The notes beneath the pieces are model-generated. The model was not told where the DNA came from and searched no databases. It saw nothing but the letters and a program-made list of their open reading frames with translations. From Pocillopora verrucosa (lineage: Eukaryota > Cnidaria > Anthozoa > Scleractinia > Pocilloporidae), in the NCBI RefSeq assembly GCF_036669915.1, contig NC_089325.1, positions 15,913,463-15,977,462 of the forward strand: a stretch of 64,000 nucleotides of DNA. The letters are read 5' to 3'. Shown here piece by piece: positions 26,011 to 36,920 of this stretch. The position numbers and the translations under genes are program-made. Within the stretch, counting starts at the first letter, position 1. Every line of letters starts with the position of its first letter.

Positions 26011-26675
26011 TTAACATCCCACGCGCTTAGCCACGTCACACAACCGACGTTTCATGATGATATTTTCATCAGCGTCCTATGGAAAGAAAACGAAATAAAG
26101 AAAATTGACAGAAATAAAATAAATGCGAAAACAAGGTTATCCAGGAATTCTAAAATTATAACTAATATAAATTTTCCATTTCCGTACATCAAAGTTTCAG
26201 ATACCTCACAGGTGAGATTTTTTCTAACTTATAAACTGTTTTAGAATCTTTATGTTACGAACTTGCCACAAGCAAGCACTCAAATCAAATGGGAGTAGGT
26301 GTGACGTCAAAATTGTCATGTACGGTGGAACCAAATAAAAATAAAATTGGTTTAATTTCTGAGTTTCGAAAGACTTTTACTTCATTTCTCCAATAGTTTT
26401 CTCGGTCTTTCGTGATTTTTAGACCTAATCTTTTGTTAAGAAAAATTTTATCGTGCGGTCAGCTATGCCAAATCACATTCATTATGTAAGAGGTAAAAAA
26501 GGAAAACAAAACTCATAGCGTTGGAGGTACTTACCTGAAAGTCACTCAACTCCTCGAGGGCTCTTTTACCAGGTATACCACTATTTCCTCCGTTTGCAAA
26601 GGCATCAGACTCGGTTGGAAATAACACCAGAAGGGAGAGCAAACCGATCAGACATGGAAACAATTTGGCTGCCAT
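26011..26675 (-). CDS. Secreted peptide precursor 1 (C-x7-C family)
   Basis: Exon 1 is 26535-26675 (47 codons, donor CAG|gtaagt) and exon 2 is 26011-26076 (21 codons plus TAA, acceptor ttccatag); the intron is phase 0 and the product 68 aa. The start is ATG 26675; the upstream in-frame GTG is ignored. A signal peptide (AAKLFPCLIGLLSLLVLFP) is probably cut after ESDA. It leaves FANGGNSGIP followed by Gly-Lys-Arg, a classic amidation and dibasic cleavage site. Exon 2 encodes an acidic spacer, MKRR, then LCDVAKRVGC at the very C-terminus: two cysteines seven residues apart. Thus two peptides are probable: an amidated linear one and a disulphide-looped one. A neuropeptide, hormone, antimicrobial or venom role is possible. 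The family is unrecognised. Confidence 0.8.
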
Positions 26676-26756
26676 TCTTGCACTGGGCACTTTCTAGTCA
26701 ACGATAGCTTGTCTTGGTTGCCGACGTAAAATACTCTGGGCTCCTTGTTTGTGGTA

Positions 26757-26763
26757 TTTTATA
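26757..26763 (-). promoter_or_regulatory. TATA box of peptide gene 1
   Basis: Minus-strand TATAAAA (in gcttataaaatacc) lies 82-88 bases upstream of the ATG. It is conserved at the same distance in gene 2 and similarly placed in gene 4. Confidence 0.6.
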
Positions 26764-32807: not shown

Positions 32808-33362
32808 TCAGCAACCCATTCTTCTTGCCACTTCACACACACGGCGTTTCATGAGGACATTTTCGGCGTCGTCCTGTGGAGAGAAAGGGAGAGAAAGGAA
32901 GAGTAAATGATTGTAGCAAAGTTTATATGACACCACTAGTATGCCAAAGATGATTCCTTTGTTATTCCCCTTCTTGAAGTTAGTGATATTTTGGCGAGTT
33001 GTTTGATCGTTTGACCAATTCATCGTCTTGCTAATTTTAAACGAATGATGAATCAGGAAATTTATGCATTTTGGTAAACTGTTGTCACTCTTTTTGTTTT
33101 TCTTTCTACTCTCTTTGACACATTTTTCGTAAATTTGATGAACGTGATGGGCTTGCTGCAAAAACTAAGTAGTTAGGTATTGTGAATAATCCAAATTAAA
33201 AAACCAATAGTTCGTACTTACCTTCTTTTCCTTTTGTTCCAAAAAGCCTTTTTTACCTGGAGAACCGTGCTTTGCCCCATTTGCAAAGGCGTTAGATTCA
33301 GGTGAAGATAACACCATCAGGAAAAGAACAAAAGCCAGACAAAAATAGAATTTGACTGCCAT
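32808..33362 (-). CDS. Secreted peptide precursor 3 (C-x7-C family)
   Basis: Exon 1 is 33222-33362 (47 codons, AAG|gtaagt) and exon 2 is 32808-32873 (21 codons plus TGA, acceptor cctctccacag-like); the phase is 0 and the product 68 aa. The signal peptide (KFYFCLAFVLFLMVLSS) ends in ESNA. The first predicted peptide, FANGAKHGSP, is followed by Gly-Lys-Lys. Exon 2 has DDAENVL, MKRR and VCEVARRMGC. The architecture is identical to genes 1 and 2, with substantial divergence in the linker (FLEQKEKK). It lies outside the duplicated block, so it is an older paralogue. Confidence 0.8.
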
Positions 33363-36345
33363 TCTATCAGTTGACAATTTTTGTTCAGAGAATTGCCTTA
33401 ACTTCTGCCTTAGAAAGTTTTAGAGTCTTTTATTAGCTGTCTTTGATAGGCTTTAATTTGTGTCGAATTATTTAGAGAAAATTATCAAAACTATAAGTAT
33501 CTGATTGGTTCAAGTGATTTTAATAACAGAAGGACGGAGATGCGATAAAGAAAGAAATTACCACGCGAAATAGGAATTTTCAGGATAATTTTACTTTTAT
33601 CAAAGGGATTGCGAACAATAACAGACTATGTATAAATGTTCATTTGATGTGAATATTAAATGGTAAATTAACTAGTCACGGTGAGAGAAAATATTGGATA
33701 TTAACTATCTGAAATTACAGTGTAATGAAACTTTATGAACTCATCACAGGTCTTATGAAGATGACTCGACAAATATGACATCGTCGGTTTATTTTACCCC
33801 TTGTTTTGGAGACAATTAGACTGAAAAATGAAAGCTATCAGTTTTGATTTTGAGTTTTTCTGATGGAAAGGTAACCAGTTGTGTTCATATAGCTGCCTTA
33901 CAGGCGATTGATCGAAAAGGATCGATTTCCGGTCTTTTACTATTAATGATAACTTTTTTTTTCCTACATGCTGATTCTTTGGTTTTCGTTTTATTTGCCC
34001 ACACTTCACAAATCATCCATCCTAAGGCTTAATGAAAGTTTAATGACAATCGACCATGCTCTGACATTGTTAAACTCACTGAAAAACACACCTGTTGTTT
34101 AATATACTTAAACCTACAGCCCAAACCTTCAAAGGGATTGTCTTTTAAATAGTTGTCGATGTTCGAGGTGTCAATCAATTGACCGCTTGGCTTTCCAGCG
34201 CCTGATTGCTATTACATTTGTAATTTAGGTCTAAAAGTTCAATTTTGTAGATCTCAATTGATAGACTGCTGGAAAACCTTGAAACCTTGAATTCAAGTTC
34301 ATCAATCATAGAATGAACACCGTCCTGTTTTCTCCAAAAGTTAGTATAAAGCCGTTGAAGGAGTTTCACCCACTTTTAGGGTCTGCAAATTAGGCCACGC
34401 TTTGAAAAATTCTGTTACAGCATATGAGTTATAACGAACAATACATGAGAAAAAACATTCATCAATCGGTCGATTGACGTACAGCTGTTCTTGCTACCAC
34501 TCAGCCACACAGCGTGATTAAGTCCAATTGCTACATTATTATATACAGTCGACCTCCAGATCGTAGTAATAAATTTTTAACCATGCTTACATGTGCAAAT
34601 TAGCAATGAATACAAATATTAACAAAGCTTTATTGACAGACACGTGTGACAACCTTCTATTCAGTTGCAAGCGTGGCAAGAAAGTAAAGAAACGTTCACC
34701 GAAAAAAAATCGTCGATTTTTTGTTGGCTTATAAAGAGCTATAAGAGTGATGACACGGGCTCGACGTTTGAAAGTCTTTCAAATTAAACTTGACTTTGCT
34801 ATCTTTTAGCTCTAAGTAATAAAATAGAGGCAGGGAAACTCTCCAAAGAGTACTGACAGAAAGACAAAACAATACGCACACACGCACACGTGTGTTTTAC
34901 ACGACCTGGCTCTGATCGTAGTTGTTTAATTAACTTTTTAGATATTCTTATTTTTCCTAAAAAAAAATGCGATTTTATAAAACGAAGAGGGCTTAAGTGA
35001 AAGAAATAAATTTCTCCAGTAGTTGTATCTTCATTTACTCATTGAAGGCCAATGCTAAAATAAGTGAAAGCTCGTCAACTTCACTTTTTATGTCACGGTA
35101 AGAAATAACAGCTTAGCTTGCAAATATTAAATGAGAGCAGTGCAAGAGGACTTGTTTCCACCTCCAACTTCTTTTAAATTTTGAAATTTACAAATTCCGG
35201 GTCGGAAGTGAAACAAAATGAAAAGACGCAGGAGAGCGCAGACAGAGTTATGAATTACACCAAGAGATTGTGGACACTAATTTGTATGTTTCACAGTGTT
35301 CAACCTTTCTGAGCTTCTAGATTAAGTTATACACTTTTTCATCAGGAACACTCATGAGTTATTTTGAAATTTATTTCAGAATAAAAATCTATATACAGAT
35401 TTACTCATAATTATATCCAGATAAATGCTCAATTCAGAGTTTCCCTAAGTTTGACCTGTTTTAGTCCGTCATCGACGGCAGTTTACCATCATTGTTCACA
35501 CGCGGACACAGTTAGTGTGTCATTTGACTCAGTGGCGTACCTTTTTGCTCACTTAAACCGCATGCAATTTTATCCGACAACCCAGGTACTAATATTCTTG
35601 GTCGTGCCATCGGACACTCAGAAGTCGCCACGTCTTTTCAGTTACTTCCTGTTGTCTGTCGTGTCATTTTACTGTACCCGTACGCTCTCCTAATTATACT
35701 TTTTCTCGTGGAGAGTCACACAGCATTTCCAGACACATCAAAGCCGATCAAATGGAAGCAACGTCTTAGCCACCACGAACATGCCAAACTAGCATGAACA
35801 TAAACTTAAGGATATTTGCCGTAGCAGTCAATCTTCAAGTTTTCATGTTATCAAAGGCGTCTTTCCTCGCGGCCCGGGCGATTTTCAAGTTTCGGGAGGT
35901 TCTTGCATGTTACTACAATTGGTACCCACCATTATTATACCTTTGGTTAGATAACTATAATGCCTTGTCCCTGGGAGAACGATTGATTCAAAGGATGTAA
36001 AGATCCATGGGAAAAGGAAAGTCATGTAACGACAAATAAACGCACTCGCTGATTGCAGAAAGAAGGATCAGTTTGAGTCTCAACAGTCAATAACAGTGTT
36101 TGCAGTAATCGCAATCGCTAGACGATAAACATACGCAAGTATATTTTTGTTATCTTTATTTAAACAACAATCACGTGGGGCTAGATCATTAGTTTTCGGT
36201 GTTTAATTTACACATCCCAACCTGTTTTTATGTCATCAATGGACAGTAAACATTTTTGTTTCATTTAATTCATATGTTCTGAAAAATTATTAAATTAACA
36301 GCTTTGACGAAACTTCGTTTATCATTCTGCATCACAAATTCCAGC
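33363..36345. other. Intergenic stretch, no supported gene
   Basis: A TATA-like element (minus-strand AATAAAAG near 33427-33434) fits the promoter of peptide gene 3. A (CA)-like short tract lies at about 34878-34895. Short open frames at 35451-35693 and 35794-36000 show no domains or splice structure. Confidence 0.4.
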
Positions 36346-36920
36346 TCAGCAACCCACGCGTTTTGCAGCGTCACACAAACGGCGCTTCATAAAGGCACTT
36401 TCAGTATCGTCCTGTAAATACGGAGTGAGAAAGTAAAAAGAAAAATGGAAAACATATCAAATGAGATGTACATGTTCAATAGTTAGGGAATTATATACAC
36501 CTGCCAAAAAATAGAAAAGAAGAAAAAGACCCCGCTAACAGTAAATATATGACTCTGAACTAACTCGAAGAGCTACAAATATGACAAGGATATTTATTCG
36601 TGGTGTGAACTTTACTTTTCTCGGATAAAATAAACCTAGACAACTGACTTCATTTCATCAGGGCTTTTGAAACACCCCGGCATAACATGACTTTTCCCTT
36701 GTGTTAAATGAATAAAGGAAAGGGTTAGCCCATACGAAACTTTGCAGTATACGCACATACGTACATGAAAGTTGATCTTCCGCGAACGTTCAACTTTGCG
36801 ACCACAACGTCCTGGGGGAAGGCCCATACACGCTCCGTTTAGGGAGGCATGAGATCCAGGAGAAAACAGCATTACAAGGAAAAGAAAACAAAGGAGACAG
36901 GAAAACAATTTGACTGCCAT
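36346..36920 (-). CDS. Secreted peptide precursor 4 (C-x7-C family, with an extra cysteine pair)
   Basis: Exon 1 is 36765-36920 (52 codons, CAT|gtacgt) and exon 2 is 36346-36411 (21 codons plus TGA, acceptor tatttacag); the phase is 0 and the product 73 aa. The signal peptide (KLFSCLLCFLFLVMLFS) is probably cut after GSHA. The first peptide differs from the other members: SLNGACMGLPPGRCG followed by Arg-Lys, so it has its own C-x7-C loop before the Gly-Arg-Lys processing signal. Exon 2 encodes DDTESAF, MKRR and LCDAAKRVGC. The exon-1 frame stays open past the donor; the splice site was chosen because its phase and position match the other members. TATA box at 36995-37001; poly(A) signal at 36155-36160. 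Confidence 0.75.

Follow-up and report, generated by a model that had tools for sequence, protein, structure and literature searches.

In Bilateria, allatostatin C, somatostatin and urotensin II are ligands of class-A receptors that carry a C-terminal disulphide ring behind a basic cleavage site. Their ring size and residues differ from those of the coral gene family described here, with no similarity shown. Among cnidarians, the Cubozoa and Scyphozoa have cyclic FRamides (CxGQMCWFRamide and CxSPMCWFRxamide), reported as not found in Staurozoa or Octocorallia in the part of the source covered (PMC6909153). These resemble the present family in being short peptides with one predicted cystine ring, encoded by secreted cnidarian precursors; however, as far as that part of the source describes them, they carry WFR(x)amide after a C-x4-C ring, and one precursor holds several similar peptides (PMC6909153), whereas the family here has a single copy of C-x7-C, followed by a stop or an unrelated tail, and a different second peptide. 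Hexacoral preprohormones (RPamides, QITRFamides, GLWamides and PRGamides) share the signal peptide and the dibasic and amidation sites, but their products are amidated and often present in many copies, and the sole cystine mentioned among the matches listed from that source is that of vasopressin (PMC7523074). For LW-peptide precursor A of Hydra, the text on the LW-peptide in the part covered mentions neither cysteine nor disulphide, and we saw no sequence resemblance (PMC12440616).

Here we describe tandem genes in a 64,000-nucleotide window (the whole stretch of DNA analysed) of the Pocillopora verrucosa genome. Judged from sequence, they probably constitute a lineage-restricted prepropeptide gene family, the most likely products of which are peptides that signal outside the cell, as neuropeptides or peptide hormones do.

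Gene models, paralogues and relatives

Four two-exon minus-strand genes occupy positions 26011-36920, as the initial annotation had proposed, and all models check (Table 1). Each combines a signal-like N-terminus with a phase-0 GT..AG intron (458, 508, 348 and 353 nt in genes 1 to 4, in order) and a second exon of 66 nt including the stop, or 21 codons; the first exons are 141, 135, 141 and 156 nt in length. The four proposed endings, MKRR followed by a decapeptide, were all recovered. A TATA-like string lies 73-88 nt upstream of the ATG, and AATAAA or ATTAAA begins at most 140 nt past the stop, in every window gene. Genes 1 and 2 lie in tandem duplication units that share ungapped blocks of 74-93% identity at an offset of 3.8-4.0 kb. 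A scan of the window against Rfam gave no matches at gathering scores.

Table 1 Coordinates of the peptide genes, duplication units and receptors in the window (stop, stop codon)
Feature	Position	Strand	Content
Receptor A	8081..9232	+	Intact single-exon class-A, 383 aa from first M; Pfam 7tm_1
Tandem duplication unit with gene 1	25468..27364		Partner 29492-31174, with gene 2
Gene 1 exon 2	26011..26076	-	DADENIIMKRR-LCDVAKRVGC-stop
Gene 1 exon 1	26535..26675	-	Predicted signal peptide + FANGGNSGIP-GKR + spacer; spliced relative P0001, 96% identical
Gene 2 exon 2	29792..29857	-	EADENIIMKRR-LCDMAKRVGC-stop
Gene 2 exon 1	30366..30500	-	Predicted signal peptide + FGNGALSG-GKR + spacer
Gene 3 exon 2	32808..32873	-	DDAENVLMKRR-VCEVARRMGC-stop
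Gene 3 exon 1	33222..33362	-	Predicted signal peptide + FANGAKHGSP-GKK + spacer
Gene 4 exon 2	36346..36411	-	DDTESAFMKRR-LCDAAKRVGC-stop
Gene 4 exon 1	36765..36920	-	Predicted signal peptide + SLNGACMGLPPGRC-GRK + spacer
Receptor B	60766..61896	-	Intact single-exon class-A, 376 aa from first M; Pfam 7tm_1

Two further members of like anatomy, genes 5 and 6, were found in the flanking DNA outside the window, and all six genes have KRR-x-C-x2-A-x-R-x-G-C in common. The conserved loop directly after KRR has the consensus C-[DE]-x-A-x-R-[VM]-G-C. The C-x7-C ending that had been described as fixed is so in the four window genes but not in genes 5 and 6, which continue for 13 and 7 residues, respectively, beyond it. 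We rejected the idea of another processing site at the K-R inside the ring, because genes 5 and 6 read LR and ER at that position. A search of the same genome with gene 1 as the query (E<=0.001) matched only the array.

In 5.77 billion proteins searched we found 14 relatives (P0001-P0014), none of which has a name or a Pfam domain. Nine (P0001-P0005, P0008-P0010 and P0012) are close to the window copies; the other five (P0006, P0007, P0011, P0013 and P0014) represent divergent exon-1 types and were matched by exon 1 only; P0006 and P0007 come from a contig of 1.29 Mb and P0013 from one of 578 kb. The only full-length independent relative is P0001, which is 80 aa long, comes from a contig of 1150 bases and is close to gene 1 (96% identical). 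At exactly the predicted exon junction it runs from ...LSDFQ into DADENIIMKRRLCDVAKRVGC, and it probably derives from a transcript. In P0012, the exon-2 reading frame resembles that of gene 3, with W at the position of the gene 3 stop, reflecting either a frame called under another genetic code or an allele that runs past the loop. The exact degenerate exon-2 pattern had no matches in IMG/VR contigs or in GTDB genome contigs, so that, at the sensitivity of an exact pattern, neither a viral nor a prokaryotic form was seen.

Precursor layout and selection on the loop

The best 16-residue stretch of the N-terminus has a mean hydropathy of 2.4-3.0 in all nine exon-1 types compared, each with S or C at -3 and A at -1 of a cleavage site hand-placed at residue 25. 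A peptide of 7-14 residues separates this presumed site from G-[KR]-[KR] in 10 of the 11 distinct exon-1 types (the nine compared and gene 6, but not gene 5), so most precursors look as though they yield two products. This qualifies the proposal of conserved ends around a variable middle: the loop is indeed under purifying selection, but the middle holds a second probable peptide. That peptide ends in -P-GK[KR] in genes 1 and 3. None of the nine types compared has an RFamide, RPamide, GLWamide, PRGamide, RWamide or HIRamide motif before G-[KR]-[KR]. The N-terminal peptide of gene 4 has a C-x7-C of its own.

Across the 13 codons that run from KRR through the final cysteine, pS exceeds pN in all 15 pairs of the six paralogues, with one-sided Fisher p<0.05 in 11 pairs and no significance in the other 4. 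Genes 1 and 4 are identical at 12 of 13 residues of KRR and loop, yet 8 of 9.5 synonymous sites differ. These codon comparisons, which apply to paralogues the dN/dS check initially proposed for related species, support purifying selection on the loop where the paralogues are deeply separated. KRR, C, A, R, G and C are invariant in all seven aligned sequences (the six paralogues and P0001). In none of the six window pairs are KRR and loop less conserved than the first 25 residues: they are clearly more conserved for genes 1 and 4 (12/13 versus 13/25) and genes 2 and 4 (12/13 versus 14/25), modestly more so for the three pairs with gene 3 (8-9/13 versus 12-14/25) and equally conserved for genes 1 and 2.

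Genes 1 and 2, the youngest pair, differ by 13 nonsynonymous and 2 synonymous changes over the whole coding sequence, which is without a purifying signal (dN 0.089, dS 0.047; the nonsynonymous excess is not significant, p=0.31). Relaxed or diversifying evolution fits this excess of amino-acid changes as well as a hormone does. The absence of a purifying signal in this pair is also what small, non-functional ORFs that are decaying or arose by chance would give, but that reading is barely credible beside the matching splice sites, the TATA-like and poly(A)-type strings, the spliced relative P0001 and the retention of the invariant residues in six paralogues in which silent sites have mostly changed. 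Chance is also a poor match for the pattern itself: the degenerate exon-2 pattern occurs 4 times in the window versus 0 times in 100 dinucleotide shuffles, and KRR.C..A.R.GC-stop 4 times versus 0 in 60 Markov windows; the looser [KR]R.C.{7}C-stop occurred twice in those 60.

Signalling, defence, venom and inhibition as candidate roles

The genes have features expected of neuropeptide or peptide-hormone precursors: a signal-like N-terminus, no Pfam domain in the five genes scanned, basic convertase-type sites around a conserved peptide and purifying selection on the presumed mature peptide. We propose that the signal would be cut after the alanine at about residue 25, that GK[KR] and KRR would be cleaved by prohormone convertases and that the first peptide would be amidated. 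An intramolecular disulphide would join the two loop cysteines. The C-terminal 10-mer (net charge +1, and a free acid in genes 1 to 4) would then be the conserved ligand, presumably of class-A GPCRs.

Neuropeptide, hormone, antimicrobial and venom roles had initially been said all to fit. They do not fit equally: an antimicrobial peptide or a toxin is less favoured than a signalling ligand, since the charge is low, there is one ring and conservation of the loop matches or exceeds that of the signal. A part in antimicrobial or mucosal defence, as a tandem family of small secreted cysteine-loop peptides expressed at body surfaces, seems unlikely, although the products are small, secreted and tandemly duplicated, the loop arginine is conserved, and bactenecin has a ring of equal spacing. 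The loop carries an acidic residue that is conserved and a net charge of only +1 in all four window genes if the cut falls after KRR, and so is not clearly cationic; an uncut KRR would make the C-terminus more so. In the middle of exon 1, 9 of the 10 changes between genes 1 and 2 alter the protein, a non-significant excess that would suit defence, but change in the loop is purifying rather than diversifying, and the processing sites are conserved.

Sea anemone toxin genes share a signal-propeptide-dibasic-mature layout and tandem duplication, which recommends the idea of a venom component delivered by nematocysts. Their families are defined by multi-disulphide scaffolds, and in toxins and antimicrobials the signal is usually more conserved than the mature part. 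The loop has two cysteines, hence one possible disulphide in 10 residues, with neither a multi-disulphide scaffold nor a match to a toxin model; no Pfam match was obtained in any of the five genes scanned (all six except gene 2), and gene 1 has no relative in the PDB (one match, E 2.2). Moreover, in the gene 1-gene 4 and gene 2-gene 4 pairs conservation is higher in the loop than in the signal, opposite to what toxins usually show, and we regard a venom role as improbable.

A C-x7-C ring with an invariant arginine might also act as a small canonical-loop protease inhibitor, its basic residue offered to an enzyme of the trypsin or furin kind, and the ring of the sunflower trypsin inhibitor is of this size. 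Bowman-Birk and SFTI-type inhibitors have a reactive loop of the T-K/R-S-I-P-P type. No such loop was found in the six genes, the C-terminal rings of which lack proline; the residue before the invariant arginine varies (K, R, L or E) and the genes scanned have no Pfam match, making inhibition more improbable still than venom.

Support for describing these genes as selected, secreted precursors of a family without a name comes from selection on the loop, the spliced relative, the lack of Pfam and PDB matches within the scope given above and the lack of any literature match to the loop strings of genes 1 to 4. We found no description of the family among the matches listed from the main texts searched, nor in the parts covered of PMC11087051, PMC7523074, PMC6756747, PMC9545775, PMC6909153, PMC12440616 and PMC9525235. 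The strings MKRRLC, IMKRR and LMKRR occur in 8 papers, none of which is titled as work on a cnidarian peptide, and these 8 lack KRRLCD, KRRVCE and MKRRVC; for motif strings of the N-terminal peptide, the best 15 of 162 matches all fell on the word 'fanga'. According to the parts of the sources covered, one anthozoan screen left non-amidated peptides out of its database (PMC6756747) and another used dibasic and amidation sites to filter a secretome (PMC11087051). With such reliance on amidation sites in published anthozoan work, a conserved ring peptide whose C-terminus is free could go unnoticed. Should the loop prove to be a ligand, it would add a peptide class to the orphan-receptor problem of corals and anemones.

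Receptors around the peptide genes

The peptide genes lie inside a 304-kb cluster of 15 intact class-A receptor ORFs on one chromosome. Eight A-type receptors come first and are followed by genes 1 to 4; next are receptors B and C, then gene 5, then an ORF that is receptor-like but more distant, then gene 6, and last the remaining five receptors. We offer the neighbouring receptors as hypothetical targets of the loop peptide; if the loop is a ligand, they form a short list of candidates. The fuller proposal, that peptide genes and class-A receptors expanded together as a linked locus in which two-product precursors with cyclic, non-amidated loops supply the native ligands of the adjoining receptors, is an attractive but speculative one that we doubt. 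Class-A receptors are very common in this genome, such that the linkage may be due to chance, and we claim no significance for it, as the genome-wide count consists of 3887 first-look candidates, of which 147 were scored. The leading PDB relatives of receptors A and B are peptide receptors. Receptor A is the rightmost of the A-type copies that extend to the left of the window; receptor B is 34% identical to it and has neuropeptide FF receptor 2 as its best PDB relative.

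Gene structure and relatives of the prepropeptide genes

Genes 1–4, the minus-strand two-exon prepropeptide genes of the window, have the layout described in the initial annotation: each opens with an ATG and a hydrophobic, signal-like stretch, is interrupted by a GT..AG intron in phase 0 (458, 508, 348 and 353 nt, respectively) and finishes with a 66-nt exon, stop included. The exon-2 pattern matched four times in the window and in none of 100 dinucleotide shuffles. All four genes have a TATA-like string 73–88 nt upstream of the start codon and a poly(A)-type signal downstream of the stop. 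Genes 1 and 2 lie in a tandem duplication (offset of 3.8–4.0 kb; ungapped blocks 74–93% identical); genes 3 and 4 are old, judged by divergence, as their introns and flanks align to those of the other genes and to each other at only 0.45–0.56 identity.

The window occupies positions 15913463-15977462 of contig C14. A gene-1 search of the whole genome (353 Mb, 52 contigs) gave five matches at E ≤ 0.001, all inside the array. Flanks of 240 kb were added, for a total of 304 kb, of which 32.5 kb is N; 17.5 kb of this adjoins the left edge of the window. By six-frame motif scan, C..A.R.GC occurs six times in the 304 kb: in genes 1–4 and in two flanking relatives on opposite strands, genes 5 and 6. 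Both retain the phase-0 intron and KRR-[LI]-C-D-x-A-x-R-M-G-C; their tails after the last cysteine of the loop (the C-x7-C segment that follows KRR) are 13 and 7 residues in length, respectively.

Three database searches returned 14 related proteins (P0001–P0014). Only P0001 is full length: it lies on a 1150-base contig, shares 96% identity with gene 1 and spans the predicted exon junction with the intron absent. Its source label, 'lgn', we take to denote an assembly of public reads, though P0001 could conceivably be a processed gene copy. Twelve of the other 13 proteins read as exon 1 extending beyond the donor site, as expected from bacterial-style gene calling on eukaryotic DNA; for the divergent relatives among them, this run-on is what we infer. 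P0012 has a gene-3-like exon-2 frame entered from the intron, with W at the gene 3 stop position; either the frame was called with a different code or this allele lacks the stop.

Conserved loop and probable N-terminal peptide

Eight residues from the basic site to the end of the loop (K56, R57, R58, C60, A63, R65, G67 and C68), together with M1, S23 and A25, are invariant in all seven aligned sequences (six paralogues and P0001). Across the 13 codons from KRR to the last cysteine, a larger proportion of synonymous than of nonsynonymous sites has changed in 15 of 15 pairs, and the loop-codon test is significant in 11 of these (one-sided Fisher, p < 0.05), the pairs being non-independent through common ancestry. 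For the whole of exon 2, the five deep pairs in the window have dN of 0.18–0.26 and dS of 0.72–2.21 (p from 0.0004 to 0.062). The young pair, genes 1 and 2, has 13 nonsynonymous versus 2 synonymous changes in the coding sequence (9 versus 1 in mid exon 1), with no significant deficit or excess of nonsynonymous changes.

The region between signal and loop had been described as a variable middle. It does vary, but it is more than variable: with signal cleavage assigned by eye to the position following alanine 25, all nine exon-1 types in the comparison (near-identical database copies left out) have 7–14 residues and then G-K-R, G-K-K or G-R-K. A glycine ahead of basic residues is the usual signal for amidation. 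The predicted peptides are FANGGNSGIP, FGNGALSG, FANGAKHGSP and SLNGACMGLPPGRC in genes 1–4, and FANGAGAGKP, IGNGAGAGIP, FGNGAGSSVPAKT, VAHGGGL and FGNGALA in relatives. Gene 6 also carries the site (TIISGPSLCPKNGC, then GRRRR) and gene 5 is without a GKR site, giving 10 of 11 types with a short peptide and a G-basic site. The N-terminal peptide of gene 4 has its own C-x7-C spacing ahead of the amidation-type site, and the N-terminal part of gene 5 has C-x6-C. As genes 4, 5 and 6 each have two cysteines in this part, cysteines may pair between the two peptides. In P0008, a close copy of gene 4, H replaces R inside the N-terminal C-x7-C.

Neighbouring class-A receptors

Within the window, the array is flanked by two class-A receptors, A and B. 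Among the best 60 of 314 PDB relatives of A, ghrelin and neuropeptide FF receptors lead; among the best 60 of 476 for B, neuropeptide FF receptors lead and histamine H2, an amine receptor, is also high. Of the 32 open frames in the 304 kb that reach 150 residues or more, 15 are hits to A or B at 1e-15 and look intact, with lengths of 343–396 residues; the three checked (A, B and C, the last in the right flank) all match 7tm_1 in Pfam. Eight are A-type, the last ending at 9.2 kb, and group in a tree as one young clade (support 100/100); the other seven lie at 61 to 154 kb. Broken copies are also present.

Features of the locus, in window numbering extended outwards
Feature	Position	Flank pieces	Strand	Source
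Intact single-exon class-A receptor ORFs (15)	-102747 to 153999	L006-L029 + window
Non-LTR reverse-transcriptase-like ORFs	-106476 to -105667; -94244 to -92976			by eye
Broken receptor copy, 68 residues	350-553
Receptor A	8081-9232		+
Nine-base tandem repeat	21739-21824
Genes 1–4	26011-36920		-
Gene 4, exon 1	36765-36920		-
Collagen-like ORF	42873-43295
417-aa ORF	44238-45491			Pfam
Receptor B	60766-61896		-
Gene 5	70110-69958 and 69570-69460	L008 6110-5958, 5570-5460	-	motif scan
More distant receptor-like frame	86335-87321
Gene 6	93706-93846 and 94293-94379	L010 9706-9846, L011 293-379	+	motif scan

The order at the locus (A-type set, genes 1–4, B, C, gene 5, the distant receptor, gene 6 and five more receptors) suggests a ligand–receptor cluster. 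A peptide gene adjoining receptors by chance is not improbable, given 3887 first-look 7tm_1 candidates genome-wide (147 of them scored) and other dense clusters among these, for example, C5 near 28 Mb and C6 near 5 Mb.

The locus also contains a 417-aa ORF carrying the dimerisation region found at the C terminus of hAT transposases, reverse-transcriptase-like ORFs among the receptor copies, 9.8 copies of the repeat TAATGAGAG and an ORF that resembles the short-chain collagen C4-like proteins often found in cnidarians but gave no match in a Pfam scan. The initial annotation treats the source animal as a cnidarian; to this the present analysis adds the collagen-like ORF, the abundance of class-A receptors and a genome of 353 Mb with spliced genes.

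Proposed role and known cnidarian peptides

The gene structure, signal-like start, conserved basic sites and conserved loop are established, and we consider it moderately likely that the genes encode signalling peptides, with a processed ring peptide acting on a class-A receptor. The precursor would be cut after KRR, the two loop cysteines would close the ring and the first peptide would be amidated; release would be from neurons or gland cells. Three other roles rank below signalling: a defence peptide is unlikely, a venom component is distinctly improbable and a protease inhibitor is the most doubtful.

The loop strings of genes 1–4 were not found in the literature searched. In that literature, the nearest counterparts described in cnidarians are ring peptides of Cubozoa and Scyphozoa, namely C-x4-C WFR(x)amides (PMC6909153); they differ in sequence, in ring size and in being amidated, so the peptides here are not members of that family. 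The hexacoral families in the available part of PMC7523074 are amidated with known endings, and the genes here match none of these. A 2025 study (PMC12440616) reported a cnidarian neuropeptide that is bioactive without being amidated and, as far as its authors knew, the first such case.
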